Assembly (NCBI RefSeq): GCF_000003815.2 | Contig: NC_049995.1 | Span: 14,489,378 to 14,553,377, forward strand | Reading direction: 5' to 3' | Source of the DNA: Branchiostoma floridae | Taxonomy: Eukaryota; Chordata; Leptocardii; Amphioxiformes; Branchiostomatidae | Length of the DNA: 64,000 nucleotides | Shown: positions 6,194 through 63,453 of the stretch, piece after piece | How the letters are laid out: every line of letters begins with the position of its first letter | Position numbering within the stretch: the first letter of the stretch is position 1 | Translations under genes and position numbers: made by a program | The notes under the pieces: model-generated | The model's input: only the letters and a program-made list of their open reading frames with translations | Told to the model about the DNA's origin: nothing | The model's database searches: none

Positions 6194-7530
6194 TAGTCAG
6201 TATACATGTATGGTATTTTAGGAGTTGTTTTTGCAAGAAAGAAAGAAATAAGTCAGATCTTGGTTGCGTTTGCAAAAGCTCCTATGTCTGTGGTTAAAAT
6301 TTGTACGATTCCGAAAATAATGAATGTTATGTGCTTGATCTTTTTGCTTTCAAATAACTTAATAGAAGAACAAATGAGTTGTTCATTATACATGTACATA
6401 AACTCAACATTGTTCAGCTGTGTATATAGTACTTATATTGACTTGAAGATTTCCTGAAAGTGTGCGTATGTCATACATTCTAAACACATGCACGTGTATA
6501 TTGACTGACTGCTTTGTTAGTAAATCATATTCAATTCTTAGAAATGCCAAGGTGTATATTGATATTATCAATCTTTTAAATTTTACACCTCATGATGATA
6601 ATGATGATGAATGTAATCATTATTTGTACACGAATGGTATAGCTATTAATCATTCTTTTTTGTTAAATGTTTGTTGATGGAAATTTACCAATAATGAGCT
6701 CATTTTAAGCTATTTACAAATACAAAAAACAGCATCTGCATGTTGAAACAGTACTCTTTATTTCGTAGTTCAACGTCACTACCAATGTTTTTGTTTTTGT
6801 TTTGCCTTTTTTGTATATTAAATAAGTTTCAACACGTGCAATGCACTCTATTTCATCAGCGGAACAAATTTAAAGCCTTTATTTTAGAAATGCAAAATGC
6901 ATTCGTAATTATGTACAAGTTAATCATTTCAAAGACTGTCCCTTATATTTCTTTAGTATGATATGACTTCCTATATCACAAAAAAGCTTGAATGCACTTT
7001 GCCTTAGTTACGCATGAAACACCCTCATTTATTCTAAGCGAGACAAATTATACCATGGCAAATATCCTCAGATTAAGTAATCAACTTCAAACTGCTCGCT
7101 ATATTTCTTCATTATAAAATAAGCTCCCAGATCCTATAGCAGCATGAATACATTCCATCATATTTACGAAACAAATCCCTTGTTTTCCCAGTGTGAAGGC
7201 GTTTTATTGCAAAAAACATAGGCGGTCAAATCCCCAAATACCAGCAATACATCTTACTTGAGTTGATCCCAATATGCAATAGCATCATGAATACGCTGAC
7301 GGACTCACAATATACGTCAGAAAACAAAGTCATACTTTCTAATAGCATCTAAGCAGATTCAGTGCAAAAAGAATCTGTGTGCCATGATTCTACATATAGT
7401 TACTTTACCTGGTCTCCCATACACATCATTAACTAGGCTGAGTGGAATTCTAATCAGTTTACTAGGTAACGCTAGTTCACCTTTATCCGTGGGTGACCTT
7501 TATCCGCTGTCTTTAAAACAGCACATTTAG
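6194..7530. other. AT-rich 3' flank and intergenic DNA
   Basis: This presumably begins with the KCNE-like 3' untranslated region. No further coding sequence is recognised. Short frames here are AT-rich and have no protein-like features. Confidence 0.5.
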
Positions 7531-23060: not shown

Positions 23061-23514
23061 GGTGCTCCCGTGGAGGCAGGCAGGCCGGTACTGACGGTAC
23101 CCTGGATGGTAGACACTTGTGTCACCTCCTGCTGGCCGGGCAGTATCCTGAAAAGAGAAAAACGTTTGAAATAGTCCAAAGGTCATTACATCTCATGGAG
23201 AACAATGTGTGCCTTTGATGCTAGACACCTGGTATCCACTAGTTTTCACAGAAGTCATGGTTTCAATCCAAGCTGTACATCACTGATTATACTATAAATA
23301 TAGCAACCTCGGTGACCTCAAACGTCCCATTACTGAACACTGCACATATCAGCTATAATTACTTAAAAATCATTGTAGGAATTGCATAAGCACCTATGTA
23401 GTTAAAAAAGGAACAAACTGTTTCTATCGACTCCAATCGAGTCCACAAGCCATTTAGAATCACGCACAGACGCAGACACAGACACAGACAGACGAATGTA
23501 ACATAACGAAAATT

Positions 23515-23640
23515 GTCTACTGACTTTCCGAGGATGTGCTTCTTGAGGAACCGCCAGAGCCTAGCTCGTGAGCTGGCCCGGAAAGCCCAGTACAGGTGCG
23601 GGTTGATCATGCTGTTAGCGATGTACAACCGCCTCTTTCT
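23515..23640 (-). pseudogene. Second extra copy of GPCR TM7/helix-8 exon segment
   Basis: Encodes the same segment as the functional exon (YIANSMINPHLY through FLKKHILGKSVDN) with two replacements near its end. It lacks the upstream splice acceptor and ECL3 codons found at 24083 and is joined to CA-rich sequence. In frame it is continuous with the copy at 23688-23800. It could only be translated by read-through. Confidence 0.7.
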
Positions 23641-23687
23641 CACACAAACACACAAATAGACGAAGGCAAGAAAGATAACATTGTGTA

Positions 23688-23800
23688 CTGACTTCCCGAA
23701 GATGTGTTTCTTGAGGAATCGCCAGAGCCTAGCCCGTGAGCTGGCCCGGAAAGCCCAGTACAGGTGCGGGTTGATCATGCTGTTAGCGATGTACGGCCCC
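23688..23800 (-). pseudogene. First extra copy of GPCR TM7/helix-8 exon segment
   Basis: Near-identical to the functional copy at about 23907-24020 (YIANSMINPHLY to GKSVHN), but it begins abruptly in CA-repeat sequence without an acceptor. A (CA)n tract of about 65 bp separates it from the functional copy and puts it in a different frame. Confidence 0.7.
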
Positions 23801-23801
23801 C

Positions 23802-23810
23802 TCACACACA

Positions 23811-23875
<65 letters not shown>

Positions 23876-25746
23876 GCAAATAAATACACACATTAGAAAC
23901 GTTGTGTACTGACTTCCCGAAGATGTGTTTCTTGAGGAATCGCCAGAGCCGTGCCCGGGAGCTGGCCCGGAAAGCCCAGTACAGGTGCGGGTTGATCATA
24001 CTGTTAGCGATGTACAGCCGCTTCGCCACGAAGTCCTTATCCTTGTCCATGTCCATGCCCTGCTGGTTCATCACTGTGCGAACCTGAGGTGTGGACGGGA
24101 ACGACAAAAATAAACTCTCACTATTATAATAAAGAAGAACTTTATTGCACGACAATTGTACATGGTACAAAGTATGGCAACAACTCTTGCATAAAGTACA
24201 AAACAGAGGTATAGGATAAAGCTTAACATCATAGTTAACATAACAATAAGGGCTAATATGCATAATTCATTCATATAGTATCATAATGAAGTAGGCTAAT
24301 CATTAGCTTCAGTATTCTTTCTAATAGCGAAGCAGTCCTTGATATATTTGCTTTTTTTTGCATTATGGGAGTACTTTGTACCAGGTATGAACACATTTGT
24401 GTGTATAGACATATAGGACTCATCATGTCTTTAAATGATGTAAAGTTGTAAACCGTATCTCTGTTATATATCTTGTTTGACCCTTGCAGCAGGCCGATTT
24501 TATTTTCATGATTGAGTTATAATTGACAAAGATCAAACAAAAAGACACAAACAGAGCAAAATAGCTTCGTGCATTGAAACATGTCCAGGTTCGGTTACCT
24601 TTTTAGAAATTTCGTTTTTTCATTAGTATGTTTACGTAATCAGTCACATGGTGATTGTTTATCAGTATTGATCCTGAAGCCAAGAAGGCGACAGTGGTCA
24701 TTAACTTGAAAATTTGAAGTTCTGAAGATTTGAAGATTATAAGTTTTTCAATTATACATATTCCCCTGCCTTAGCATCTGAAAAAATGCCTAGTAGTAGT
24801 GGGTAACTAAACACTCAAAAGAATAAGTATTGCTAAAGGGGGTTCTTACCAAATATGGTGTGAGGCAGATGAGAAAGAACATTGACGTCACGATCATCAA
24901 GATGGCGAACTCGCGCTCCTTCTTCAGTTCTTCTGTCTTGCCTGAAGGCTGAGAGGAGGTAAGAAAGATATGAGAACAATCGGTACTTTCCAAGTGATGC
25001 CATTATAGGGGTAATAAAGGTATGAAAAAAGTTATACTTTGAGAGTGATAATCCATATTTTGTCAAATTCATTGAGTTTTAAATCTTACTTTAGAGAAAT
25101 ACAATCTAAAAAAAGAGGAGGGCATACTGTTTAAGTAGGGACAAAATTGATTCTATAGGACCCAATTTACACAGGATAGAGTGTAACATCGAATGTTTAT
25201 TGAAAGATCATTGAAAGGTAATTGAAAGAACATAGAATGATCTTCGAAGCCCTCTTATATACTGTAAATGCATTTAAGTTCGCGGGGATTTAATTTCGCG
25301 GTAGCGGGAAAATGGACTTTTCGCGGCGGTTTTAATTTCGCGGTAGCACCATGCACTGTAACCTCTTACTGTTATGAAAAAATATTCGCGGTGGTCTTAA
25401 ATTCTCGGTGAAGCGGCCACCGCGAAAACCGCGAACATTAATCCACCGCGAACATTTCTGCATTTACAGTATTATACGTGCTTGCAATACCATGAGATCC
25501 GCAGTGCGGCGCCGCATCCTGTAGAGCTCCTGTACCACAGCCAGGTTGCTGAACACCAGAACCACGATCAGGACAAATCCTGCAACGGCAGAGACGGAAT
25601 GGACATTTCAGACACTACGTCACATTGAGAAAGAGAGAACAATGCACTGTCAGAGTTCTCATCTGATACGGCCTAGGAAAATGTTTTGTTTCCTTTTCAG
25701 TCCTAAGAAAAATCAGGGTCCGTTGGTCCGTAGAGATTATCAATCT

Positions 25747-25799
<53 letters not shown>

Positions 25800-28700
25800 C
25801 CAATCAATCAGCCAATCAATCAACCAATCAATCAACCAATCAATCAATCACTAACTGACCTTGTATGACAGTGAAGTAGGCGTATCCCTGCGCCAGCGGC
25901 CTCTGGTCGTGCCAATCGTACTGACAGGAGATGCCGAACTTCTGTTTGATCTCAACAACTCCCATAAAGGGGATTGTCGTGAATAGGAGCTGGAAAGCAA
26001 AGGGAAAAAAACAACAACAACAACATCAGTGGTATAAACATACTCATAAATCATTTGAGAAAAGAAGCTGGAAGACATAATGGAAATGTTACAGTTATTT
26101 TACTCCTTAACCCGGTTAGACTAGTGAACTGGTATGTTTTTTACCGAAATGAATCATACTTCTTATGACCCTTTAATACATTTAATCGTTTTAAGAGATC
26201 CTATTCTAATGTCTAAGGCCCAAAAGTCTTTTATATCACTGTGTTTTCAAGCCTTTTTGGATAGATTCCAAACTCTTTAATAACGATTAAATCATCAACA
26301 TCAATCTATCAATCATAAGGAAATTGAAATCTTCTTTTATATCTGATATTTATTCGTAAATTTGCGTTGCTTGTTTTTGTATTCATGTATTTTATTGTTC
26401 TTGGCTGCACATTAGATAATAGTTTTCTTTTCAAACTTTCCATTTAAAGATTTCCCTCAATCTTGCATCGGCACAATGATACATTGACTCAACTTTTTAA
26501 TAAGTTACTTAATGATATCTTTAAAAAAATGTTATACCTTGTCGGTAATAGAGACACATGTAAAGAGTCAAATTTATACTTATTAATATCATTATTATTA
26601 TTATTATTTACCATTATATAATAGTGTTAGATTAGAAGATGTAATATCATAACAAGAGTATGTTTGGGGAAAATATTTGTCTTGATAGCGTCAACTCGAC
26701 TTGGGTTGCCTAAAAGTGCGATGATTAAATACCCTCATATATACATGCATGTCATATCGTTTGTTTTCACACACATGTGTTTGGGGTGAAATATCATCAT
26801 GATAATAGTTTTGGCTCGGGTTGCAAGGGTTTTGTTTGTTGACATGAAAAATAGGGCTTATACATATATCATCCGAGTCTATATCTGTATCGCATAGCCG
26901 ATAGAATAGCCTTTCGATACCACATTAAACGACCTGCTAGTGTTACACTACTTACCTTCTTTGCATATCCAATGACGTTATATAACGTTCTTGACATATC
27001 TAAGTCCGGACGTCGTTTTAAGCTAATCTTTTATCTCCTTCAAATCAAATTGACATTGCAAAGTTACCCCAGAGCAGTACTACCTCTGAATACTTTTAAT
27101 TTTACAGAATGGAGTAAAATCACATTAGATAATAAACACAGTAGACAAGACATGAACAGTCCTTAAACTAAAAATACACACATCACATCCATACAAAGAG
27201 AGAGGTCATCGAGAGATTGAGAGAGAGAGAGAGAGAGAGAGAAAGAGACAGAGAGAGACAGAGAGACAGAGAGAGAGAGAGGCATAAGAAGAGACAGAGA
27301 GAGAGACAGAGAGAGAGACACAGAGAGAGACAGGCAGAGAGAGAGAGACAGAGAGAGAGAGAGACAGAGAGAGAGAGGCAGAGAGAGAGACACAGAGACA
27401 GAGAGAGAGAGATCGTGTACTTTTTTTATTACATGTATCGTGTCCTCTCTGTATTGTACATACCGAATACGCCACCACGCCAGCCAGCACACAGAAGGCA
27501 GACTTGTAGCTGACCAACAGCTGGTATTTGAAAGGCAGCTTCAGCGCTAGCATTCTCTCCAGCGCGGAGGACACCACGCAGAGCTGAGACGCAATGTAGA
27601 ACAGGTAGGTCACGAAGGCGCGGTACTTACACCCCGTTAACTCACCTGCTGCACAGGTGCCAAACAGGTGCTCAAAGGTGGCGTGGCCGGTGGCAAAACC
27701 TGGAGAAAGGAGGGGAAGGTGAAGAAACAAGAAATCTTTTTAAAAAGCTGTGCCTTGCCGCGTATTTTATGTTATTTTGGTAAGTTAGACTAGATTCTAC
27801 CCTTAAAAATCCAGAGTTCCACATGTCGCCCCCTCCCTCCTCATTATCATAATTTATGTCAGATGAATTATTGGCACATTAAACAGGTTTTGTAAAACTT
27901 TTTGACCCACAATGAATATGCATTATTTTTTATTACAAACTAAGTTCCTTCTGATGCAATTTGTGATATATCTTTATATAAACATGGTGAGTTAAAGCGT
28001 AGATTTATTACGCTGGACCACATACAGTAACATGCGTCTAGAAGAGCGTTTTAATACTCGCCTGGAATGTACCATTGTTTAACTAAGCCATGAAACTCGG
28101 CCGCGAGTAGCCGCGAGTGAGCGAGCGAGCGATTAGCCGCGAGCGAGCGTTGGCTTGCGTCCCTAATGTCTGTGTACCCTTAGGGGTCAACTACATATGA
28201 GTATGGTCATTGTATCGAATGGTCATTACTAATTTTGAACTGTCACCTTCCAGCAAAAAGAAGGGCCTTTGGAAGGGGCTTTGGAAGGGCTGGGTTAACA
28301 GGTCCGTCCATCCATGGAACCATGGAAGAAAGCTGGCGTAAAGCCTTGCCGGCGGCAAGGCAAAAATGTGAATAAATAGTAGAACAGAAGACATGACGTC
28401 ACGCTTAAGGACTTCGACTAAACTGGTGCTCAAATGTGGCAAGAGCTGCATAAAATAACAAAACAAGGAAATTAGATATGATATACGCAAACACACACAC
28501 ACAAACGCACACACACACACACACACACAAATACAGACAAACACACATACATATGGAAACACACACAAATACAAACACACAGAGAAGCAAACAAAAAAAC
28601 TCACTTCACTTCCTTGTAGTAAAGTCAAAATAAAACGATATAGACAAATGACATACTAGTATTTTGAGCTTTAAACGTTTAAATGTGATATGATTTGAAT

Positions 28701-44039: not shown

Positions 44040-47000
44040 TCAAAACTTAAAGTGTGAAACAAATGTGATATTTCTACTAAGACATATTGCAGCCAGCAGT
44101 TTGGCACCTTCTTCCATTAGTAAACCGTTCTCTGAGACGTCCAAGTGTAAAAGTTCACATGACTTTTCCACAAAGTCTACCAGACTTTCCTGAGTCAGTG
44201 GTATCATACCAAGGTTCAGGTGCTGAATGAGGGGTATGTATTTGTTGATGACCTGAAGTGACCTCTGTGTGACCTGTTTACAGCCGCTCAGGTTCAGACT
44301 GATCAGGTTTGGCAGGTTCTGAAACAAACAACAACAAATGCAGGGTGTGAAACTCATCGTTTTCTTACCCTGCAGGTGATAGTTTGTGATATATATTGGA
44401 TAGTACAAAGAACTCAAGCTCATCTATGTTGGCACATTGTAGAACACATGTCTAAAACTGTGTATACTGCGCATGCAATTCTTAAAAACTTTCCTTTACC
44501 AGTTGGTCTGAAGATTTCCCTATTCTCTATATTGTTTGTTTGTTTGTTTGATTGATTGATTGCATCTTGCTGCACATACTTTTTTCATCTATTGCTTGTA
44601 TTGTATACCCCAAAAGCTTCAGTGGAAAACAGCTTTCAAAGTCACAGTGTAAACAAAACCAGTTCAAGCAAACAGGCAAGAACAAATAAATGAAAACATA
44701 AATGGACGCACAAATAAATGAATGAAATATTGAATTAATATATGAATAAGAGAATGAAGGAACAAATGAACAAAAGATTGGATAGTAGAGTTTTCTTTCT
44801 CACAATCAGTGAATCTTACCTGCTAACATGTTGATGCAATGTTTTTATTTTCGAACAAATGAATGAAGAATGAATGGATGAACAATAAATGAATAATATA
44901 TATATGAATAAACAAATGAACGAACGAAAGAATGAATCAGGGTTGTAGCCAGCACCTGTCCTTCAGTCCTTTGAAGGAATTTTGCAGCTGGGGACTGAAA
45001 AAAGTTTTCCCCATTCCGTCCCCTGGGACAGACAAAAATTGATATGTAAAGATATAAAAAAACTGAAACCCATGTGTTCTTCTTCACCAAAACAGATGCC
45101 ATTGAACAGCTTAGTCTACAAGCAAAATTTGCACCTCAAAATGCAGGAAATGGTGTTTAAGAGGGTCTTGATTTAAAAATTATCAGGGACCCAGACCCTC
45201 TAGAAATGACGCGCAACGTCACGCCATGCCTTCGGTGCTCGATAGGATTCCCATTCAAAATCAAGGGGACTGAAAATGATTTCAGGCTGGCTACAACCCT
45301 GGAATGAATGAATGAAAAAAAACTCCACATCTCCTCACCTTGACCAGCATGGTGACCACCTGATCGTTCACCGCGTACCCAGCATCCCTCAGGCTAAGCT
45401 TGCGAAGCTCGGGACATTTCTGTACGAGGATTCTGGCGGTGCCGTTAGTGAAGTACATGTCATGGAGGTCCAGACTGTCCAGGGAACGGCTGAGCAGGCT
45501 ACGGAGAACGGCGTTGGTCAGTTGACGTCTTCTCCGCAACTTGTGCAGCATGCAGCTGGGGACAGGGAATGACACTAGTTTATCCATTATTAGTGTATAG
45601 TGGAGATCACAGAAACACACTCATACAAACAGACACACACAGGTCAGTTCAAACAGACTCAGCAGGCTGCGGAGGACGGCGTTGGTCAGCTGACGTCTTC
45701 TCCGCAACTTGTGCAGCATATGCAGCTGGGGAAGAGATTAACACTGGTTTGTCTATTATTTGTGTATATTGGAGATCACAGAAACACACTCATACAAACA
45801 CACACACACACACACAGGTCAGTTCAAACAGACTCAGCAGGCTGTGCAGGACGGGGTTGGTCAGCTGGCGTCTTCTCCGCAACTTGTGCAACATACAGCT
45901 GGGGAAGGGGTCAACACTAGTTTATGAATTGTTTGAAAAAAAAGACTATTCAGAGATATCAAGTCAATGGACACAGGATTCAAACTGCAATATCTCAGAA
46001 ATACAGTCAGTATTGCCCTGTAAAACCACGATCCTCGGCTTGATATTTCTGAATACTGTAAATGCATTTAAGTCCACAAGGCTTTAAATTCGCGGTAGCG
46101 GGACATTTCTGTGTGAGGATTCTGGCAGTGCTATTCAGGTGAAGTACATGTCATGGAGGTCCAGACTGTCCAGGGACCGGCTGAGCAGGCTATGCAGGAC
46201 GGCGTTGGTCAGCTGGCGTCTTCTCCGCAACTTGTGCAGCATGCAGCTGGGGAGGGATTAACACTGGTTTGTCCATTATTTGTGTATATTGGAGATCACA
46301 GAAACACACGCATACAATCAGACACACACAGGTCAGTTGAAACAGACTCAGCAGGCTACGCAGGATGGCATTGGTCAGCTGGCGTCTTCTCCGCAACTTG
46401 TGCAACATGCAGCTGGAGAAGGGATCAACACTAGTTTATGAATTGTTTGAAAAAAGAAGACTATTCAGAGATGTCAAGTCAATGGACACAAGATTCAAAC
46501 TGCAATTTCTCAAAAATGCATGCAGTTAGTATTGCCCTGTAAAACCACAATCCTCGACTTGAAATTTCTGAATACCACAAATGCATTTAAGTCTGTGGGG
46601 ATCTAAATTTGCGGTAGCGGGACATTTCTGTACGAGGATCCTGGCGGTGGCGTTAGTAAAGTACATGTCATGGAGGTCCAGACTGTCCAGGGAGCGGCTC
46701 AGCAAGCTACGCAGGACGGCATTGGTCAGCTGACGTCTTCTCCGCAACTTGTGCAACATGCAGCTGGGGAAGGGATTAACATTTTCAATACGGCATACAG
46801 CATGTATAACTGTAATAACATTTGCCAAAACTCACAACTTGTGCTGCATACAGCTGGGGATGGGATTTTTTGCTGCAGTGTTGTGTAATGTAGATCACAG
46901 AAACACACACAGGCTTAGAAGGCTGCCCAGAACAAAGATGTGTATAAGTTGTGTGACACACAGTTGGGAAAGGGATTAATCAACAGAACGCTTTTCTTAT

Positions 47001-51691: not shown

Positions 51692-53116
51692 CATTTTGTT
51701 CACAGTATTGTATATTTTGTTATTGTTTAGAGTTTTAGAGGCCATGTTTCCTTGGGGCTACCTGCTTTACTGGACTGGTTTATACTAGTATATTTCTTTC
51801 ACAAATACAGAGATGACACGAAAGAAAAGCAGTCTCAGTAACAAGTACGCGAGTTACTACTAGATACATGTACACATGCATCATATACAAACTATGTCAC
51901 ACCTAAAAATAATAATTCAAACTCAGGTCGCCCCGGAGAATCTCCGGTGGATCACAGGAGCTATCCTGGCGGAGAGTGACGAGAAAACGGACCCAGAAAC
52001 GGTCAAGGCTCTGCAGGAGAAGGGATACAAGCTGCAGGAGTAAGTATTGTGGAACTTATGCCGTTGGTGTTAACAGGCTAGGGGATGAAAAGGGCAAGTC
52101 TACAAAGGGTGTCAATTAATGGTCCTCGTAGGTTCATTGTGGCGTTGTTATAACTGTATAAACTTGTGTCCGTAACTTTTTTGCTACGAGTCATTGGCCA
52201 CCACGTAACACGACCCACCTGTAAAGCGAAGGCCGCTTCGAGGCTACAGTTATGTTATATGACGATATAACGTTAACATGTAGCAGCATATCTTCTCCCT
52301 AATTTAGAAATATCATGATTGAGACCAGGTCGCTATTTCGTCGTTTATTTCAAGCACTTGTATTGCCAATGTTGCTAACCTCAGAAATAAACAGATAGAA
52401 ATGTAAATAAAAAAATCTCCTCAGCTTCCCCGAAGTTGCCCGTGCTGTCAAGACATCCTTCCCATTTGTGAACACCCTCTCAATTATCCTGGCCGTGCGG
52501 AAGGTCTACACTGCACTGTCAGACTATATTAAGGTAACACATGTAAAAACAGTCTTTTTGGTGTACTAATCAACAATGAAATTTTTGATTGTTTTATTTG
52601 GAGTATTACAGATGTAAAACTAAAAGTCAGGATAAGTTTATCAAGAAATATTTATTTATTAAGAAATAAGCCACGATATATATACACCCGAGGATTGAAG
52701 TGATAATGTCAGTGTGCTTTAATTTTGCTACCGAAATGATCAGATTGCAGAATATAATGGTCGTGCACGTGATGTCTGCCCATTTTCAATGTAGACTCAT
52801 TTCACTATGCAAGTACCTGCATATCTATTATATTAGATCCTCTGCCAAGTTTAGAATAGTTTAGCATAACTTGCACTGCAAAATTGTTGTAAATAAGTGT
52901 TTGATTATCTTATTGTATGGTTCATTGGATGATTGGGGATTGGCACATCAGTTAATTGATCGATTAAACGATTGATTGATTGATTTACAGGCCCGTGGGC
53001 TGGAGGCCGGCCCGTTTATAGACGTGTATGACCCTGCTCACACCGTGAGTCACTTCATGGCGCCGCTGGAGCTTCACCAGCTCTTCTACGTGCCTGAGGT
53101 CAAGCCGTCATCTTAA
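50398..53116 (+). CDS. TEX264 orthologue (ER membrane, GyrI-like domain)
   Basis: Exons: 50398-50484, 51322-51480, 51927-52039, 52425-52533 and 52991-53116. The junctions are GT-AG with phases 0, 0, 2, 0, giving 196-197 codons. The N-terminal hydrophobic helix (residues 2-22, VVALVVGIVVAVVAVVLVYA) is the ER anchor. The rest is the GyrI-like cytosolic domain: GAPPIGKFTGAYKHYRGPYR, then CFGVWYDDPE, RWITGAILAE, a central KTSFPFVNTLSIILAVRKVY and a final FYVPEVK. These match the order in vertebrate TEX264, an ER-phagy receptor that also works with p97 in DNA-protein crosslink repair. The vertebrate protein is about 310 residues; this one stops right after the folded domain and lacks the long disordered tail with the LC3-binding motif. 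AATAAA occurs near 53504. Confidence 0.92.
51655..51690. repeat. CA microsatellite in TEX264 intron 2
   Basis: A short (CA)n tract with no coding role. Confidence 0.9.
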
Positions 53117-53119
53117 ACG

Positions 53120-54520
53120 TCACAGGCGGTTATATACTACATGCTCAATAGTTTGGATATTCGATTTTCTTTCTTATATATGCCTTTCTGTACTTGCGAT
53201 GGCAGTTTGCATAGGGCATCTTTAAGAGGGAAAGTCGAACAGAAAATAATCTAAAACTATAAGTAAATGGGTCCCAACAAGCGGTGATATTCTGATTTTC
53301 TCCGGAGTTTAGACATTCAGTTTTCTTTCTTACGAACGCCTTTCTATATATACGTGCAATGACACTTTGTTTTGGGCATCACTTAAGTGAGTTTTGATCT
53401 ACAAAACTATTTCTAATCCATTCAGTTTCTTGAATCATTCTAATGCCTCTTTCACTTTTCTTCATGACAACATCTCTGTGGAGAGTTATGGCACTTTTAT
53501 TTCAATAAAAACATTTTTGAATAATTTTATGTTTGACACAGTAATCTTCCAACTAAGATATTACACGACTAACTGTTACTTATAATCACTAATACAGATA
53601 TCAAACCAATATATATCGTATACTTTCATCTGAAGAATGAATTGCATGCAACCTCTTGACACATACCGTATGGTAACTTGTGTTTTCCATTATATGATTA
53701 TATTGATATACAAAAATACACACAGCAGATGTGATACGAGTTCTGCTGAAGATAGTAACTTTACGTTAACCAAAATAACAGGTTATACAAGGCGTTTATC
53801 AGATATCTCTGATATTTCTTTCTTTACGTATAGTACAGTTCTGCACCCTGTTAAAGGTGACACCAAAATTGTCCTCTTTTTTGTCATATTGCAGACATAA
53901 GTATAAATCCACTAGTTCACATGGATAAAACAGTCATATATTTGTACACAAGACTGACTTTCTAACAGTCGTTTTTCTATATGACAATTGATATTAGCAA
54001 TACATGTATCTTAACATGTACGTACAAATGTCATACATTGTACCTGTTACAACTGTCACTCAATGAAGTTCTAATTCTTCTAGTTATAGGTTCAAGGTTA
54101 GAAGCATAATACATTTACATACACGTTTAGTAAATATCAGTGTCTTCCATATTTCTTGCGTATAACTTACACATTCCTTATAGTAGAGGTGTGACATATT
54201 CAAATGAATATAAGTATGTACAGAAATATACACATTTTACGTATTGTTAGTCTGACTACCTTTTTAATCCATCTCTGGGGATACATGTAACATCCTAACT
54301 GTTATATGTAACAAACATGAATACATTGTGTATAGGGGAACAACTTATGGTTTGTACATTTAAATCGTCGTCATGAGCCCTTCCAATTTGTAGTCAACTG
54401 TCCAGTTGTCCAGGTGACAACGTTTTTACATGACGGCATACGGAATTTCTTATTGTTTATTTTCATCCAACTGAAACGCACAGATTGCACACCAGGAAGG
54501 GCCGACAGGGGGCGTTGTTG
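53120..54520. other. TEX264 3' region and convergent spacer
   Basis: AT-rich; candidate poly(A) signal AATAAA near 53504. It lies between the 3' ends of TEX264 (+) and the receptor gene (-). No other gene is seen. Confidence 0.5.
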
Positions 54521-54522
54521 CA

Positions 54523-57500
54523 CTAATTGTCGTAACCATAGACTTCGCTTTGGTCGTTTTCGTAACCGTAGATTTCCGCGGCCGGTTCTTGTTGTCTTCT
54601 GTTTCTCACCTGGACGCCTGTAAAAAAAGAGAGTATTATGACATTAGCTTCATGATTCTATCATCAGTTCCAGAATGTACACAGGGAAACAGAACTTAAT
54701 AGTAAAGAGTTTTGAGGTCCCTTCGTACAGCAGTGACTGGAAAGAGGGGGAAATGTGAAAGAGGCAGAGAAAGAGACACGAAGAGAGTGAGAAGGCGAGA
54801 GAAAAGAAGCAGAGAGAGAGGGAAAGATAAAGACAAAGAAAAGAGATAAAGGAGAGAAAGAGGGTGACAGATGGCGAGAGAAATCTAGAGAGAAGAAAGG
54901 TGCGGAAGGGACACAGAGAGGGAGGTAGAGACGACCGGAAGCCTAGGTATTCATACTTACGTATACTGTACTAAGTTCATAGGAGCTAGAGGTTTAATGA
55001 TAGCAAGGTCAAAGATATTTTGCTTTCCGTAATACTCGTACGAATTCCGTTAAAGTTGAATGGATACTTAGGCACACCTGGAGACGGGCAAAAAATCATT
55101 CCAGATAGGTAAAAAGTGCATGCTCAGTACTCGAGACATCAAACTAGGAATTCTAAGTTCCGCTGCAGTACCATAGCGCGCAGCTAGGGAGCCCAATGTC
55201 TAATAGTGTCAAGGTCTTATAAAAACCTACCCACGTATCAAATCAATACAATCCATCCAAGCTAGCGTTCTCGAGTTATGCTGGTATTCTACAAACATAC
55301 AAATAAACGCTACCCAAAGTCTAGCCATCTCGGCTTGAAGGTATGTACAGTAGAAGCCGCTTAATGCACGGCCTGTTTGCCAGTGAATTTCGTGCAAATA
55401 TCCGGCCGGTGCAATTAGGCGAAGTTATCTAGCTGGACCGCACCGGTTTGGGATTTTGGGATTCCGTGCAGTAAACAGAAGTTTGTGTTAATCTATTGTG
55501 CAATTAATTGGCTTTTACTGTAATGATAACTTACGTGGCGGTCTTTGTGCTCTCCTGGCGGACTCCGGTCGGGGCCCGGCCGGCGGTGGGGGCGGCACTT
55601 TTCTCGTCTTCTTCCTCCCTCCTGCAGTACCGTGTGGAGACGCTGTGTGGTGCGGGGACTGAGTTAGAGGCGTTTGTGTGGGTGGTGGGGGTGGGGGAAG
55701 ACTGGGGAGATCTGCAGGGGGTAGGGAAGGGGGAAGTTGGGAAGTTTGGAAGTGACTAGGGGTATCTTCTGGGGCTGGGGGAGGGTCGAGCGAGGGCATA
55801 CTGTCCATGGAGGCTATGGAAGGAAACTGTTCATCATCGCAGTCCGGAGGGGGAGGGAAGTCGTGTACTGGGTCATGTTGTGCTGTGTAGTCGTAGTACA
55901 GGTGTGGGTCCTCGTGTGACAAGGGTTGCGGGTTAGATTCTTCAAAGTTCTGATACATCGATGGGTCTTCTTGTGTTACATTTGACTGCGCCGCGAAACC
56001 GGTATTTTGGTAGACCGGTTCGGCTGTCTCGAATCCGGATTGTCCGGCGTCTCCTGAAGCCGGATACTGGTCACCTGAAACCGGATACTGGTCACCTGAT
56101 ACCGGATACTGGTCATCTGAAACCGGATACTGGTCACCTGAAACCGGATACTGGTCACCTGAAACCGGATACTGGTCACCTGAAACCGGATACTGGTCAC
56201 CTGAAACCGGATACTGGTCACCTGAAAACTGATTCGGGTCGTTCCCATACACGGCGTCCTGCTGCGCAAGCGCGTCGTCATGGTAACCGTAGTTGGCCGC
56301 GCCCTGGTGATGGTTCAGTTCTTCCAGAGGCGGCTGATCGTAGATGTCGTCATCAGTAGATCCCGGATTGAACTGGTCCGGCTGTGGTTCGACGTACACG
56401 TCAGCATTCACATTGACGTCATCGTAGGCGTCATCTTGTTGGTGGGCTGGATTGGCCAATCCGGCGTGGTCGACGTACTCCTCATTTGCATACGGGCCGT
56501 CCTGGTTCATCTATGATGAAGATTGGGATAAAGTATTGTAATTTTCATGTTTCTATTATTTCGACGTTGCCAAGGATGATAACTTAATGGCTGTTGTTTA
56601 TCTTTAGCCTCTACCAGGCTCCACAGGTCGCCGGAAAAATAGTAGAAACTGGCCAAATAAAACAAAAACCACGTCAGAGGAGTTAGATGGCCCAGGGGTA
56701 CAGTTTGCGACCTAAAGCCGGCCAACACTCCTATGCCTATTTCCAAGTAGGCTTTTATTCCTAACTTGGTCAAAGTTCATTCGGCCAGGTGGGAGACTGG
56801 TAGAGACTAGTTTATCTTACGCAGTGCCACATTGTCCTTGTCTGTCTTCAAATTGCAAAGCAAAAGTTAACTTACAATGTTATTCTACCTCAACTCTTTA
56901 AAATATATATACTAAAATCATGCAAATTACAAGAACAAAATTGAGTTCTAAACCTTGATTAACAATACTATTCCACCTCAACTCTTAAAGATATCTAATA
57001 AAACCATGCTCTAAACCTTGACAAAACACCATAATTAAGTACCTCCGGATTTCTCACACTATTCGGGCCAGGAACGTAGCTGTTTCTCTTCTGCAAATCA
57101 GACGAGAAGGAAATTATTGAGTGTTCAATCAATCTGATACATTTCCCTAAAACAATCGCAAAATTTACAATTTGAAATTCTAAAAGTGTATACCAATTGC
57201 AAGTTCCACCAAATGGCAATTAGGGCGGCGCCCATCTCGGTTTATGTAGCCCTGCTCGGCCGCATAGCTTAAATGTGCAATCACTACAGCAGGGGGCTAC
57301 TTCAACACAGACCACCGCTGCTGTAGTGATTGCACATTTAAGCTTAGTGGCCACATGTACGGTAAGATTTATTATAAAGGCTACTTACCCTTTTCTTGGA
57401 CTTTCTCTTCTTCATCTGTCGTCATAGAAACAAAAGAAAAATATATTGCATCATTACAATCATGGTTTTATTTATTTTTGTCACCTTACAACCCGGCCAC

Positions 57501-58684
57501 TGATGGTCCGGGTCAACGGAAAAAAAATTAAAGGGAGCACCATGAAGTAACAGTCACTGCATTTGTGCAGTGTAGGTCACTTGGTCACTAGAACAAATTT
57601 TATTGTGCAAAAAAATGATGAATTTATGAAAATATCAAGGCGATGGTCTCACCCCAATGTTTTCTTCCCCTTCGTCGGTCTCCTCCCGCGGTTCCCTTCG
57701 CCTCCGTCTGATACAACAGCAGATGATGCCTATAATGCCACCCGTCACGACAATGCCACCACCTGTACCTATCAGTGCCCAATGCCATGGGAGTAACACT
57801 ATCCCTTTTGTTGATGTAATAACGCGACATTGACCATTGTGATCGCATCCATAGTCCGGGTTGCAATTCTCATGGCAGCATCTCTCACTCCCGTCGCCAT
57901 AGCAACCGGTTGTACACTTGTCATGGCAACAGCTGCTACCAGAGCTACCGTAGCATCCTTTATCTTTACATTGGACGTGGCAGCATAGCTTAGAGTTACT
58001 CCAAGGTGGTTCCAAGTCGCTTGGGCATTCGTCGACGCATTCGAGTTTTATCGAGTAGCCCGCCGGTTCGGTTATTGGCTTTTCTGTTGAACTTGTGGCG
58101 GTCGCCGATGTAGCGTTTGGATGCGTTGACGATGACGTAGCATTATCAGTGACGTCAGGTGATTGTGACGTAGTTGTAAGTCCAAACGTCAGAGTCCGAG
58201 AAAGGGTAGCTATTACCGTGGTCGGTCCAACGGTCGCTGCTGTTTCAGCGGTTGTCTGTTCCGTCGTATTTGTTCCAATAGGGGTCGTTGCTTCACTGTC
58301 GTAAACAACGTCTTGCACGATAAAGCTAGATATATTACAACTTGTACAATCTTTATTCTCTGGGCCAGAACAACGTCCACAACTGTCATGACATGACTCA
58401 CAACTTCCGGAAACGTTTGGACTTCTCAACTCACAGTACTCTGTTTGTGAACAGTTCCAATTGCTGTCGCAAACAGAATCTGGCGGTGGTTTGACCGTTA
58501 TTGGCATTGTGGTAATTTTGTCCGTAATGCTCGTTGTTTGCATCGCAGTCTGTGTCTGGGTAGTTATTCGTTCTGTTGTGGTATAACTATGCACACACTG
58601 GACCTGTAAAGGATAGGAAAGAAAAGTCACATGTAAGAAAGTTCTACTTTAACAACGTCATTATACTCCTTTTATTTTCTTGCA

Positions 58685-58725
<41 letters not shown>

Positions 58726-61700
58726 CTCTCTTTCCCTTTCTCTTCCTCTCCCCCTTTCCCTATCGTTCTCTACTCGTTTCTTTCCCTCTATCCCATTCCC
58801 TCTCCCCTTCCCCCTCCCTTTCTCTATCTCTCTCATTTTTCTCTCTGTCCTCTCATTACATTTTTTTAAACATGAGATTTAATGTCGCACACGATTTCTT
58901 TCTTCTTTCGCCGTTATGAAGCCCTGCCTTTCCCAAATCTGCTACGAGAATACCTGATAGAATGTGGGAAAAAGAAACTGAAGCTAATGTTACTCCCTAC
59001 AAATAGAATGGATTATTCCGACAGCCTGTTTACCCGAAATATACCAACATACCAGCAATATTCAAGTCCTATGAACTTGTCTTTGAAGGTCACCGACCGA
59101 GACATGACTCAGCGAATAGAGAGAAACAGGTGAACGTGCAAGGATGCATGCACAGTTCATATTACATTTATCAAGTAAGTTCCCTCTACCCTCTCGGACC
59201 AACGTTATTTATCTGTTTCATACGTATGTAAATTCATCGCCTTAAATAATACACACTGTTCTTGGTAAGGAGATTCCTCTTTTTAGTCTAGATCTGTTAT
59301 GAAATTGGAGCCTTTTCCACATTCTAATTGCCAAAGAAAAATACTCCTTGTGCTTAATTAAAAAAGAAAGAAGGAAAAAGAGAGTGCAACAAATTCCATC
59401 CCCTACAAGCAGATAATTATTCTGATCTTTTGTTTACTCAAAATAAGACTAACATACCAAGAACGTTTAAGCCCTTCTGGTGATCTCGTCTCTGAACGCC
59501 TCCAACCAGAAGGAATCAACAAATAGTCAGAAACAAACGAACCTTGATAAACAAACGCACAGGTGCAAGGTACAGTAAATATTACAATAGTCTAGGTTTC
59601 CTATATTTCCTGAACACCTGTTTCTTGCGCAAGTATTAGTATTGATACTAGGCTTCTCTTTATACGAAGCGCGTATTCGACGCCTCTTCTTTATCATAGT
59701 CCATAGTCAGTAAAACCTATAGCTATATTATGCAACCTCAATCGCAGACTTCGTAGCTACACTTTTTGTTGGCTTATCATGTGCTGTTTGGTCTATCGTT
59801 TGTCAGTTTCCTTAAGCCCCCTTTACAAATCAAGAATTTAGCTCGGCCGAGTTGTCAGCGAGCTCTAAATTACGAGGAGGTNNNNNNNNNNNNNNNNNNN
59901 NNNNNNNNNNNNNNNNNNNNNNNNNNNNNNNNNNNNNNNNNNNNNNNNNNNNNNNNNNNNNNNNNNNNNNNNNNNNNNNNNAGTTTCTTCGTCAGCATCA
60001 GGGTCACACCTCAACGTAAGTTAGAGTTTGCTGGCACTTCGGCCGAGCTAAATTCTTGATTTGTAAAGGGGGCTTTATGAAAATATGTTTCCTACAATCA
60101 TCCAGCATAATTAATCTAAGGATAGAACTGTTGCATCATGAGAAAACAGGGGAATGATTTGCGGCTATCACATGATCCTTCACTGAGCGATGTAACATAT
60201 GTACACACTCATGCATCGGTTGGATGAGTGACAATTTTCTCCAGGGTCATTTCCTCCTTGGCTCACGAAGGAGTCTTAAAAGATAAGCAGGCGTTACTAA
60301 GTCGTCTACAAGGAAGTAAATAAATACGGATGATTCAGATTCTCCCGATGACTCAAACATTTCCCTGTCACGACAAAGTCTTACCCTAAGGACTATATTT
60401 CTGCCTTGTCATATAAAGGATCCCTCTATTTTTATCAACGTAATTAAAATATAAAGCTTATAAACTCTACATGGAGAATTATTCTAATCAGCTTAAGCTG
60501 TCATTTAGCGAAGAGGAGAAGAAATGTGCTTTTTTATGTGCAGCTATCTTTTGTGTTTACATGTATTGTAACATTAATATTACAATAAATTCAATTTAAC
60601 TGACAAAACGTCAAACGCGGACAGTAGTGAAGAACTATCGTAAATGTTGTGTTCGTAATTCAGCAGTACAAAAGGAAAAATAACCAAAATCAATCCAAAC
60701 CTCAAGTTTATTTCATTATAAATTCTACCGAAAACATGTTTACTTTCTTTATATCCTAAGTAATACTTACCATTGTCCTGAGAATCCCACACCAGACACA
60801 GTGTGTTTGTTTCCGTCTATAGCAACGGTTACTGATACGTGAAGAAATGTCTGTGAGAAACGGTTGGTCTGATCATTTCACCTGTCCGTCCCTCTAAATT
60901 ACTTACTTCCCCTTTTTGTCCCTTTCAAATCGCCCCCCTTTCTATTTTCTCAAGTAACAGAATGCCGTGAAAAACACAGTTAACAAACCGCTGCTCATAA
61001 ACAAGTCGGTTTCGTAGAGGAGGTTCTTTTGAAAGACTTCCCCAAACTGTAACTCGAGATGGTGTAGAAACAATTTCTTCACATGTGCCAGCCACAACAC
61101 TTGTCTGTTTCTGCGTGAATTCTTTTTAACCTTTTAAGAGTATTTCACAAGAAGTCATTCGAGGGAGTTTCCCCTTGAAATATTAACAGAATATGCCCTG
61201 CAGAAAGGTCTCTTATACACTGACGATTAAACACTCTAAGCGGTACCTGTAATATTTTTAAAGAGTTTAAGGCAATAACTCAGTGACCCCCTCCAAAGTT
61301 TTACATTGTAATATGACAAGTATTATTCACTACACACTAACACAGTACATACTATTTAGTAAACAGTATATATTCGTGAATAAACCACAATCGCCTACCA
61401 CAAAATTCCGCCTATCTTTTTGAAAGTAAACTGCGGTGATAATGTTAATCGTAAGAACCCCTAACCCCATTAGTTTTACATCAAAATGTGCCACGAAAAT
61501 TAAACGTTATACATTCGCGACTAAAAATCTACATAAAAACGTGCCTATAGCCAAAACAGCTACAAAGATCAAAGTACAACCGTACTCAGGAGATCAACAA
61601 CAGTTAAGCGCGCCCCTACGTGATAACCCCTTCCCCAATAAGATTCCTTTGATTTATGCAAACTGTTCCAGTAAAAACTAACTTTTTATAAATTACTAGT

Positions 61701-62553
61701 TATCAACACATATCATTGCAGGTTGAAAATTGGTAACAAATCAAAAGCGAGAAAGCAGAAACTAAGCTTGTATCTATATGTCTAGTTACCACTGCGCACT
61801 TAATGTATTTACAGTCGGTCACACTGTGAAAAATGTTTCAATATTTGCACATTCCAGAACGCAAAGGTCAAAAACCAAACATACATATTTTTCTACATAC
61901 GTTAAATCACAAATTTGAACTTTGAAGCACTTGACTCTTATACATAGCCCAATCACGTATTAACTATATCTGACACGTTGTCATCATGTTTAGACGAAAT
62001 TGAAGTAAAAATGACAATTAAGTTCTTTCCATTCACGTCCGTCACCTTGGCAATATGTATACATACCCTTAGAGAGGAACTTAGGATTCAAATCGCAACA
62101 ATAAATTAAGCCATACTCATAAAAGAGATTGGATGTTCACAACAAAATTGTTAAGTACACAAAACAGTTATATTGCAGTTGAAGTGTATAGTATACCAAG
62201 CTGTGTAAATGTATTCTCAAACAACACTCAACGACACGGAAACCCCCATGCATTCACAAGACTTAAAAGCGGAACATATCATTAACTCTAATCTTTACCT
62301 AAACCGTTGTTTTTGCATTTGACAACAGGCGAGCTAAAACCACTGTTATGTTTATTATGTTTACTGGTAGACACGCTAGACTACAAGTACTTATCCAAAG
62401 GTCTAAAACCTTTCAGTAAGGTAAGAATACTAGCGAACAACGTACGGTAACAAACACGGAAGTAAAAACCTTCGAAAATTCCCTTACCGTCAAAACAGCA
62501 AGAAAGGCGACGAAAACCGCTCGCAATCCGTTCCTCTTGTCACCGACCACCAT
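54523..62553 (-). CDS. Kinase-less cysteine-rich receptor with Tyr/Pro-rich tail
   Basis: Exons: 62553-62488, 58603-57653, 57415-57389 (27 bp), 57090-57043, 56510-55535 and 54617-54523. All junctions are GT-AG with phases 0,0,0,0,1, giving 720 residues. Signal peptide about 1-26. A cysteine-rich module lies at about 67-111 (CESCHDSCGRCSGP). A Thr/Ser-rich mucin-like linker at about 115-200 has N-glycosylation sites. A second module at about 211-281 (LCCHVQC, GCYG, SCCHDKC, GCYG, RCCHENC) resembles furin-like repeats of ErbB receptors. The transmembrane helix is about 297-319, followed by RRRRR. Exon 3 encodes only MKKRKSKKR. The tail has many tyrosines, eight SGDQYPV repeats (about 460-515), Y-x-N sites at 531 and 550 and two more at the C-terminus (YEN, YDN). 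It also has DFPPPPDCDDE (582-586 for FPPPP) and polyproline runs. No kinase domain is present. Signalling-scaffold function is inferred; no named orthologue is recognised. Confidence 0.8.
54730..54925. repeat. Purine-rich (GA) tract
   Basis: GAGAGA-rich sequence in the last intron of the receptor gene. Confidence 0.8.
56054..56228 (-). repeat. 21-bp coding tandem repeat, eight copies
   Basis: Each unit encodes S-G-D-Q-Y-P-V. One unit has S-D-D and the last ends in Ala. The DNA copies are almost identical (ggatactggtcacctgaaac), so expansion is recent. Confidence 0.95.
56605..56809. mobile_element. Degraded MITE in receptor intron
   Basis: The left end TTAGCCTCTACCAGGCTCC is intact; the right end is diverged (GGAGACTGGTAGAGACTA). 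It belongs to the family of 302-458 and 28877-29042. Confidence 0.6.
57266..57344. repeat. Intronic 27-bp perfect inverted repeat
   Basis: AGCTTAAATGTGCAATCACT... at 57266-57292 and its exact reverse complement at 57318-57344, with a 25-base loop. It lies 45 bp beyond the donor of the 27-bp microexon, in the downstream intron. Confidence 0.9.
58685..58850. repeat. (CT)n pyrimidine-rich tract
   Basis: Lies in receptor intron 1, about 80 bp before the exon 2 acceptor (minus strand). The Ser-Leu frames are artefacts. Confidence 0.9.
58870..59800. other. Receptor intron 1 (first exon 62553 to second 58603)
   Basis: AT-rich, with two diverged related segments at about 58935-59100 and 59350-59530 ('atg..actccctacaa', 'ataccaacataccag'). 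No exon with fitting phase is seen. Confidence 0.45.
59816..60073. mobile_element. TTAA-type inverted-repeat element with gap
   Basis: GCCCCCTTTACAAATCAAGA at the left and its inverse at the right form arms of about 35 bp, flanked by TTAA and TTTA. The N run 59882-59981 hides the interior. Confidence 0.8.
59882..59981. other. Assembly gap (exactly 100 N)
   Basis: Likely a placeholder of unknown size inside the inverted-repeat element. Confidence 0.99.
60080..62480. other. Rest of receptor intron 1, no further gene
   Basis: AT-rich. A 46-bp exon-like stretch (60816-60771) has an acceptor and donor but would break the frame. Nothing else is recognised. Confidence 0.5.
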
Positions 62554-63453
62554 TTTGAAGACTTGAGTTGTATGAATTCCTCGGTTTATGTCGCTAGTTT
62601 AGCGGTAAGTTCACAAGTTGCTCGTTAAAAGCTAACACGCCTACCACTACCGGACCATGCAAATATGTTTTCGCTGCCAAGTTGCCGTGACCTAACGTCT
62701 CAAAACGAGGCGGCTTCGGACGATTCCAAAACCAACCAAAAAGGGGGTTACATTAATTTAAGTCAATTCAAAAGTATAATGAAAGATAAATGTTCTTTCT
62801 ATTACTGCATATCTAAACTTGAATGTTAATTCAGATGTAAAATTAGTATATTTCAATGTATATAAGGAATTGAGTATAATGTACAACTTCTATGCCCCCC
62901 ACTGTACGCATAGTTGGTATCGCCGTTAGTGATTGCAACATAGGATTGGGGCGATCTATCAAAGGTCGTCTTACACGTAACGTCTTATAATTAGGGACTT
63001 TCCAATGCCCAAGGCGCTAGACACTTCCTGAAGTTCCTTTTCTTACACTCTAGTGACCTCAATTTTCCTAGTCATGTGTGAGGAAGAATGACCAGACAAA
63101 GCCAAAGCGCCAATAATTTTTTAGAGTTTTGTCAAATTTTGTCAGAGTTGAGTCGAGTACTGAGGTTTCTTGGAAATTTTTTTATTTTTTTCTCGGAGAA
63201 ATCTATGCAAGAAATGATATATCTTAATCTGTATCTATATAGCCGGTATAACCACCCTTTGGCTTATCACACCAGCTTCGCAGGCACGCGGCGCGGCAGC
63301 AGCTGGTTTATATATACTAACGTTAGTAGTTAAACCTACAAATGTATACCTGGTAGTAGTGGCCCCTTTTTGCTGACCCCTAGGCCTTTGTTTTTATTTC
63401 CCAAGCATTAAGAAACCGTGTATGGTGCATGATCCATTTTTGTTAACGTTGGG

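Follow-up and report, generated by a model that had tools for sequence, protein, structure and literature searches.

What kind of protein is encoded by a lancelet gene that combines cysteine-rich modules outside the cell with a tail rich in tyrosine and proline motifs inside it, and in which no kinase domain is detectable? The question is raised by the minus strand of a 64,000-nucleotide stretch of the Branchiostoma floridae genome (NC_049995.1, positions 14,489,378 to 14,553,377; hereafter, the window), where positions 54523 to 62553 had been described in an earlier note as a kinase-less, ErbB-like receptor with a scaffold tail. The reading that we favour, to which we give a little under an even chance, is a kinase-less type I receptor or adaptor whose tail would be phosphorylated in trans and would recruit SH2, SH3, and EVH1 proteins. 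The locus is best read as a single gene, and its ectodomain appears to have no close relative elsewhere in this genome among the best candidates scored. We consider it an interesting combination of familiar parts.

Six minus-strand exons join into a coding sequence of 2163 nt, which corresponds to 720 amino acids and a stop codon. All five introns are GT-AG, and the junction phases are 0, 0, 0, 0, and 1, which confirms the in-phase model of six exons and 720 residues proposed previously. The elements of the model are the following:

62488..62553, minus strand: exon 1, with the start codon and most of the predicted signal peptide, MVVGDKRNGLRAVFVAFLAVLT; donor GTAAGG, phase 0.
57653..58603, minus strand: exon 2, 951 nt, with the ectodomain (both cysteine modules and the Ser/Thr-rich stretches), the predicted transmembrane segment, CCC, and RRRRR.
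57389..57415, minus strand: exon 3, 27 nt, 9 codons, polybasic MKKRKSKKR, phase 0, frame-neutral.
57043..57090, minus strand: exon 4, 48 nt, 16 codons, KRNSYVPGPNSVRNPE, phase 0, frame-neutral, weak donor.
55535..56510, minus strand: exon 5, 976 nt, with most of the cytoplasmic tail, including four of the six YxN sites, YDDV, YVEP, YDQP, DFPPPPD, and the polyproline runs.
54523..54617, minus strand: exon 6, with the C terminus, the stop codon, and the last two YxN sites (YEN and YDN).
54456..54461, minus strand: AATAAA, which starts 62 nt past the stop codon.

Exons 2 and 5 lie in the sole stop-free frames longer than 200 aa among the window frames listed (frames with at least 5 N being omitted), and the longest open frame in 40 Markov-1 random sequences of 64 kb did not exceed 192 codons. 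We consider the gene model well supported on sequence grounds and infer that its exons are carried by a single transcript. Exons 3 and 4 can be skipped without a frameshift and hence may be optional; the donor of exon 4, GTACTT, was judged weak by eye. A 100-N assembly gap in intron 1 (59882-59981) could conceal a phase-0 exon. Intron 3 contains an imperfect inverted repeat (window 57266-57345) with arms of ~26 bp, as seen by eye, around GCTTAAATGTGCAATCACTACAGCAG, which is perhaps a small transposable element.

Judged by hydrophobicity, from which the signal peptide and the membrane segment were called, the protein has a predicted signal peptide (hydrophobic stretch at residues 8-31) and a single predicted transmembrane segment (around residues 298-320) followed by CCC and RRRRR, which supports the type I topology already suggested for it. 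The ectodomain consists, in order, of a Ser/Thr-rich stretch, module 1 (C67-C111), a Ser/Thr-rich linker, and module 2 (C211-C281). Ser+Thr make up 41-42% of two of its stretches, one of 33 and one of 87 residues, and it carries six sequons for N-glycosylation. The two modules were queried as follows:

58289..58489, minus strand: cysteine module 1, 67 aa, PPPDSVC...YDSEA.
57803..58066, minus strand: cysteine module 2, 88 aa, with tandem CCHxxC units.

The tail that follows RRRRR has 395 residues with 26 tyrosines and six YxN sites, and not the 370 residues and four sites counted in the earlier note. Part of it is repetitive:

56049..56227, minus strand: 21-bp tandem repeat, 8.5 copies, with eight SGDQYPV-type units that hold 8 of the 26 tail tyrosines.

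Although the tail does have more than 20 tyrosines, as had been emphasized, their number is discounted as an argument because 8 of them fall within this one repeat. Motif frequencies were therefore judged by those of 20,000 shuffles of the tail with the repeat collapsed. The YxN motif is enriched (6 observed against 1.1 expected, P 0.0002), as are PPPPP (3 against 0.02, P 0.0004), the EVH1-type [FLWY]PxPhiP (3 against 0.34, P 0.0044), and Y[DE][DE][VI] (1 against 0.03, P 0.027). The sequence FPPPP, which we judge to be a good Ena/VASP-type motif, occurs once, as DFPPPPD, with P 0.003 for the plain motif and P 0.0002 for its acidic-flanked form, a pattern chosen post hoc; it and the polyproline runs are thus present as reported. 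The EVH1 core motif is [FWYL]PxPhiP, and acidic flanks help binding, according to PMC8789275. A Pfam match to LbR_Ice_bind at residues 448-517 (3.1e-7; 30.8 bits against a cut-off of 30) covers the SGDQYPV repeat and was judged an artefact, and the tail returned from the PDB just Spc34, at E 0.67.

In agreement with the absence of a kinase claimed for this receptor, Pfam detected no kinase or pseudokinase domain in the 720-aa protein, and three-frame Pfam scans of the minus strand at 48.0-57.65 kb and 57.6-64.0 kb gave no kinase family at E up to 1. No Recep_L_domain was found either in the protein or in the minus-strand frames of 48.0-64.0 kb, where the gap in intron 1 could conceal an exon; the same approach does detect L domains in a gene on contig C18. 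Matches to CDC45 and DUF3915 in one of the two scans were below cut-off and were rejected.

With these parts, the protein could work in the following way. Outside the cell, the FU-type modules and the Ser/Thr-rich, probably glycosylated stretches would bind a ligand or partner, and the juxtamembrane cysteines (possibly palmitoylated) and the polybasic stretch would keep the low-complexity tail at the membrane. Clustering would lead to phosphorylation of the tail in trans by another kinase, after which the YxN sites would recruit Grb2-type SH2 proteins, and YDDV and YDQP/YVEP would recruit Nck/Crk-type SH2 proteins. DFPPPPD would be bound by Ena/VASP EVH1 domains, and the polyproline runs by SH3 proteins or profilin, so that ligand binding would be coupled to Ras-type signalling and local actin growth. 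Grb2 prefers pYxN, and the other SH2 preferences assumed here, apart from that for YDDV, are likewise general background. The pYDDV of ADAP binds SLP-76 and Nck (PMC2908683). The genome has 9 matches to WH1 (EVH1/WASP/Homer-type) exons, counted whatever their subfamily (Ena/VASP or other). A LAT-like platform for Grb2-type adaptors is characterized by several YxN sites in a tail that is anchored to the membrane; this tail has six, with an anchor predicted by hydrophobicity.

The tail exon has a partial copy elsewhere. In searches of the genome (513,431,437 bases in 431 contigs), all of which score best candidates only, the tail query matched a second place, C17 ~6800350-6801346 on the minus strand, 7.7 Mb off on the same contig. 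The copy starts near codon 20 of exon 5, codons 1-19 with their ATG being absent, and runs across the exon 5 donor into intron 5; in the 30 kb read around it, there is no convincing match to exons 1-4 or 6. An uncollapsed haplotype was rejected as its explanation, given that it is a partial duplication elsewhere on the same contig without those exons. It reads through 360 codons without a stop, and the alignment gaps that lie outside the repeat, of 24 and 21 columns, are divisible by three. The copy retains the three shared YxN sites, all of them, and YDDV, and it has DLPPPPPLDSDD where the gene has DFPPPPD as an acidic-flanked EVH1-ligand motif. Over 238 codons outside the repeat, gene and copy differ with dS 0.168 and dN 0.047 (synonymous and replacement divergence), which gives a dN/dS of 0.28 (Fisher 1.6e-5). 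This ratio is 0.08 in the 72 pre-repeat codons, which carry YDDV, YVEP, and YDQP (6 synonymous and 2 replacement changes; 0.12 in a partial run with a different alignment of 70 pre-repeat codons), and 0.37 in the post-repeat codons. The duplication extends into the intron:

55063..55298, no strand assigned: segment of intron 5 common to gene and copy, most of which (its positions 56-236) belongs to an old dispersed repeat.

This segment matches the copy at 92% and the other 38 scored places, the best of 1051 candidates, at 76-80%. A Death-domain exon (5.8e-14) follows ~3.6 kb downstream of the copy on the same strand (C17 ~6796500-6801350, minus), and the copy may serve a second gene there. 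The phase-1 donor of the copy is in phase with 5 of the 15 AG sites listed there, and, because that many share the phase, the fit between donor and acceptor is weak as evidence. Between the copy and the Death exon there is a 459-codon frame that looks ZU5/UPA-like by eye and has no Pfam match; the donor of the copy could be spliced to it in phase.

The in-phase gene model, the open frames longer than chance, the enrichment of YxN and acidic FPPPP, and the retention of sites in the copy all argue for a receptor or adaptor with a docking tail. Several observations weigh against it. In the collapsed tail, neither YxxP (2 observed against 2.9 expected, P 0.82) nor acidic residues before Tyr (9 against 6.1, P 0.18) are enriched, and short motifs are common: the human proteome contains 4,994 EVH1 core motifs according to PMC8789275. 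The exact FPPPP is lost in the copy, where it has become LPPPPP, still inside the EVH1 consensus. A kinase divided among small exons, or located beyond 48.0 kb, could escape detection, and the ATG that opens exon 3 and also exon 5 leaves formal room for a separate gene beginning at exon 5. Finally, the divergence between gene and copy is 3.5% (8/226) in the intron piece, 3.7% (8/216) in the pre-repeat exon, and 8.0% (40/498) in the post-repeat exon. Since divergence in the neighbouring intron does not exceed that in the exon, the case for purifying selection depends entirely on dS, and we regard such selection on the shared tail exon as likely but not secure.

The locus might instead yield two products, a short membrane protein that ends in intron 2 and a cytosolic tail protein that starts at the exon 5 ATG, or else alternative isoforms. 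Exon 2 can indeed be read five codons beyond its donor to a stop (...EENIG-VRPSP-stop), intron 2 contains AATAAA starting at 57604, 57476, and 57472, and exon 5 opens with the ATG mentioned above. However, every acceptor and donor agrees in phase, and AATAAA or ATTAAA is frequent locally (14 on the minus strand in 53001-62600, with some AATAAA within introns). Codons 1-19 of exon 5, ATG included, are absent from the tail copy, which still keeps the exon 5 donor and therefore fits an internal exon. We consider two products unlikely; as far as the sequence can tell, none of our results points to a kinase exon or to two separate genes, either of which the earlier note had named as contradicting its description.

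A second alternative is a mucin-like protein anchored in the membrane and serving adhesion or structure. Adhesion would be mediated by its Ser/Thr-rich stretches and cysteine modules, and its Tyr-, Pro-, and Asp-rich tail would be a constitutive tether for the cytoskeleton, with phosphotyrosine signalling playing little part. The two Ser/Thr-rich stretches and the six sequons would suit such a protein, as would the low complexity of the SGDQYPV repeat, which is not, to our knowledge, an SH2 ligand. Its probability seems to us low but appreciable, given that YxN is enriched beyond composition and that YxN and YDDV are kept in the tail copy.

The nature of the cysteine modules bears on how the protein should be named. 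The earlier note had called them furin-like and the receptor ErbB-like, and had proposed a profile search of both modules against Furin-like and growth-factor-receptor models. Run in Pfam, that search gave no match: neither module, each queried alone at E up to 10, hits any family, and the whole protein matches neither Furin-like nor GF_recep_IV, nor Furin-like_2. Below-cut-off Pfam matches to Orthoreo_P10, Phage_1_1, TMIE, DUF6479, and DUF4514 lie on transmembrane or basic sequence and were discarded, and NCBIfam gave for module 1 just a DnaJ match at E 0.37. The 7 sequences listed by a PDB search at E up to 1 are all ErbB3, with weak E values of 0.23-0.55. Against its own genome, the exon 2 protein finds itself alone at E up to 0.1 (12 candidates scored), and so does module 2 at E up to 10 (1 candidate scored). 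Besides itself, module 1 retrieves eight weakly matching places, with E 0.013 at best, which are mostly cysteine-repeat (FU-repeat) arrays on contigs C2 and C3; one of the C2 stretches carries Furin-like_2 at 1.8e-8.

As a control, the cysteines of each module were kept fixed, the other residues were shuffled 2000 times, and the shuffles that reached the real score were counted. The C2 and C3 furin-repeat references carry a selection bias, having been picked because module 1 had found them, while the insulin-receptor-like, ErbB, and ZU5-gene references were obtained through Pfam without use of the query; the pieces were hand-cut from open frames and may contain intron-coded ends. Beyond the Pfam matches quoted, the names ErbB, insulin-receptor-like, PCSK5-like, and FRAS1-like stand for what we take these loci to be, by eye and recall. 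For module 1, the shuffles as good as the real sequence number 0 against the insulin-receptor-like furin unit, 1612 against a second insulin-receptor-like piece, 18 against ErbB domain II, 2 and 0 against two C2 arrays, 11 against the C3 array, and 13 against the ZU5 gene; the corresponding counts for module 2 are 7, 14, 20, 181 and 0, 101, and 11. With 500 shuffles and five ErbB pieces, they are 3, 443, 128, 6, and 285 for module 1, and 8, 9, 13, 9, and 7 for module 2. Taken together, these controls show a likeness to the ErbB cysteine domain that is mixed and ranges from weak to moderate. The FU pattern CxxCHxxCxxxCxGxxxxxCxxC is readable in module 1, and four Cys columns are invariant across 11 units selected by hand; this protein supplied three of these units, and its poorly fitting fourth CCHxxC unit was omitted.

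From the shuffle scores and the Pfam nulls, we therefore assign the modules to the FU type by pattern, short of proven membership in a Pfam family, and with no preference for ErbB. The term furin-like holds for the broad FU pattern but not for the Pfam families Furin-like and Furin-like_2. ErbB-like is too narrow: the ErbB3 matches have E 0.23 or worse, no L domain was detected, and units of the insulin-receptor and furin-repeat types fit at least equally well.

A bolder interpretation, which we consider distinctly improbable, is that of a lancelet-lineage receptor-scaffold family unlike the named ones, made by exon shuffling of an FU/CCH ectodomain and a phosphotyrosine/EVH1 tail exon, the latter duplicated 7.7 Mb away, maybe for a second gene. 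From C1:17306873 to ~17311600, one strand encodes ErbB-domain-IV-like cysteine modules (GF_recep_IV 2.1e-22, Furin-like 1.2e-18), a TM-like (transmembrane-like) stretch, ZU5 (6.5e-16), and Death (1.9e-7); these candidate exons are a hint that such ectodomains may sit on other tails in this genome. Many novel domain combinations occur among lancelet innate immune genes according to PMC2575513, in whose main text the word furin does not occur.

It is very improbable that the protein is a divergent ErbB or insulin-receptor lineage member that has lost its L domains and kinase. In favour of such a descent, its CCHxxC units have a likeness to ErbB domain II (20 of 2000 shuffles as good) and to insulin-receptor-like furin units (7 of 2000), module 2 resembles all five ErbB pieces (7-13 of 500), and the PDB lists ErbB3 throughout. 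Against it, module 1 fits ErbB domain II less well than it fits the furin-repeat and insulin-receptor-like units, and three of the five ErbB pieces no better than shuffles do; no Furin-like, GF_recep_IV, or L domain was found, and a separate C18 gene carries L domains with GF_recep_IV. This C18 gene (receptor L domains 1.6e-37, GF_recep_IV 5.1e-10, Furin-like below cut-off) is ErbB-like by eye. At C18:10185000-10197000, there are near-identical repeated frames, L-domain-like at local 6544 and 8481 and cysteine-rich at 7524 and 9675, which suggests that exons were duplicated internally or that the assembly contains a duplication.

The favoured receptor or adaptor can be compared with known systems. 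Like the ErbB (EGFR) receptors, it has a predicted type I topology, CCHxxC units resembling domain II, and a Tyr-rich tail; unlike them, it has no L domain or kinase that we could find and no Pfam-detectable Furin-like or GF_recep_IV, and a Ser/Thr-rich linker separates its modules. FU-repeat proteins, presumably of the furin/PC5 and FRAS1 types, share the CxxCHxxCxxCxGPxxxxCxxC unit contained in module 1, whereas here one such unit is accompanied by an unusual tandem CCHxxC block in a transmembrane protein with a scaffold tail. The C1 candidate is similar in its GF_recep_IV/Furin-like modules, its Thr-rich insert, and the stretch, TM-like by eye, that follows, but its further exons carry ZU5 and Death in place of phosphotyrosine or proline motifs, and its Pfam matches are strong (2.1e-22). 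The transmembrane adaptors LAT, PAG, and NTAL, as well as nephrin, have juxtamembrane cysteines and a kinase-less tail with YxN or YDxV sites, and the likeness is an analogy in working; the ectodomains of the LAT type are tiny, and nephrin has Ig domains. ADAP/FYB1 and LPP/zyxin are cytosolic and have folded domains. The resemblance to them is one of motifs, namely YDDV in ADAP (PMC2908683) and FPPPP or LPPPPP near acidic residues in LPP (PMC8789275). The working of the protein may resemble that of LAT, nephrin, or ADAP, and we place it in none of these groups.

Regarding its surroundings, the next gene downstream looks Tpt1/KptA-like (E 0.00065; 20.2 bits, below the family cut-off of 26). Farther away, three near-identical minus-strand copies at window 23362-24266 read YIANSMINPHLYWAFRASSRARLWRFLKKHI, which resembles the end of the seventh transmembrane segment of G-protein-coupled receptors and has no Pfam match for this piece, and a frame resembling a seven-transmembrane protein lies near them at window 27209-27739. 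Two near-identical minus-strand frames that look like leucine-rich repeats (window 45294-45620 and 46529-46831) stand beside a 175-bp tandem repeat at 45493-45925, and a neighbouring frame at window 44043-44423 has weak leucine-rich-repeat matches below cut-off.

In the literature, with lancelet annotation databases and most subscription papers outside its scope, we recognised no description of this protein, although one may well have been published. Should the gene be expressed as modelled, its product would be a natural receptor in which recognition by extracellular cysteine modules is kept apart from catalysis and which brings its own array of SH2, EVH1, and SH3 docking sites, and it would offer a parallel to LAT or nephrin outside vertebrates. 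Together with the ZU5-Death candidate, it would illustrate how growth-factor-receptor-type ectodomains can be shuffled onto non-kinase tails.

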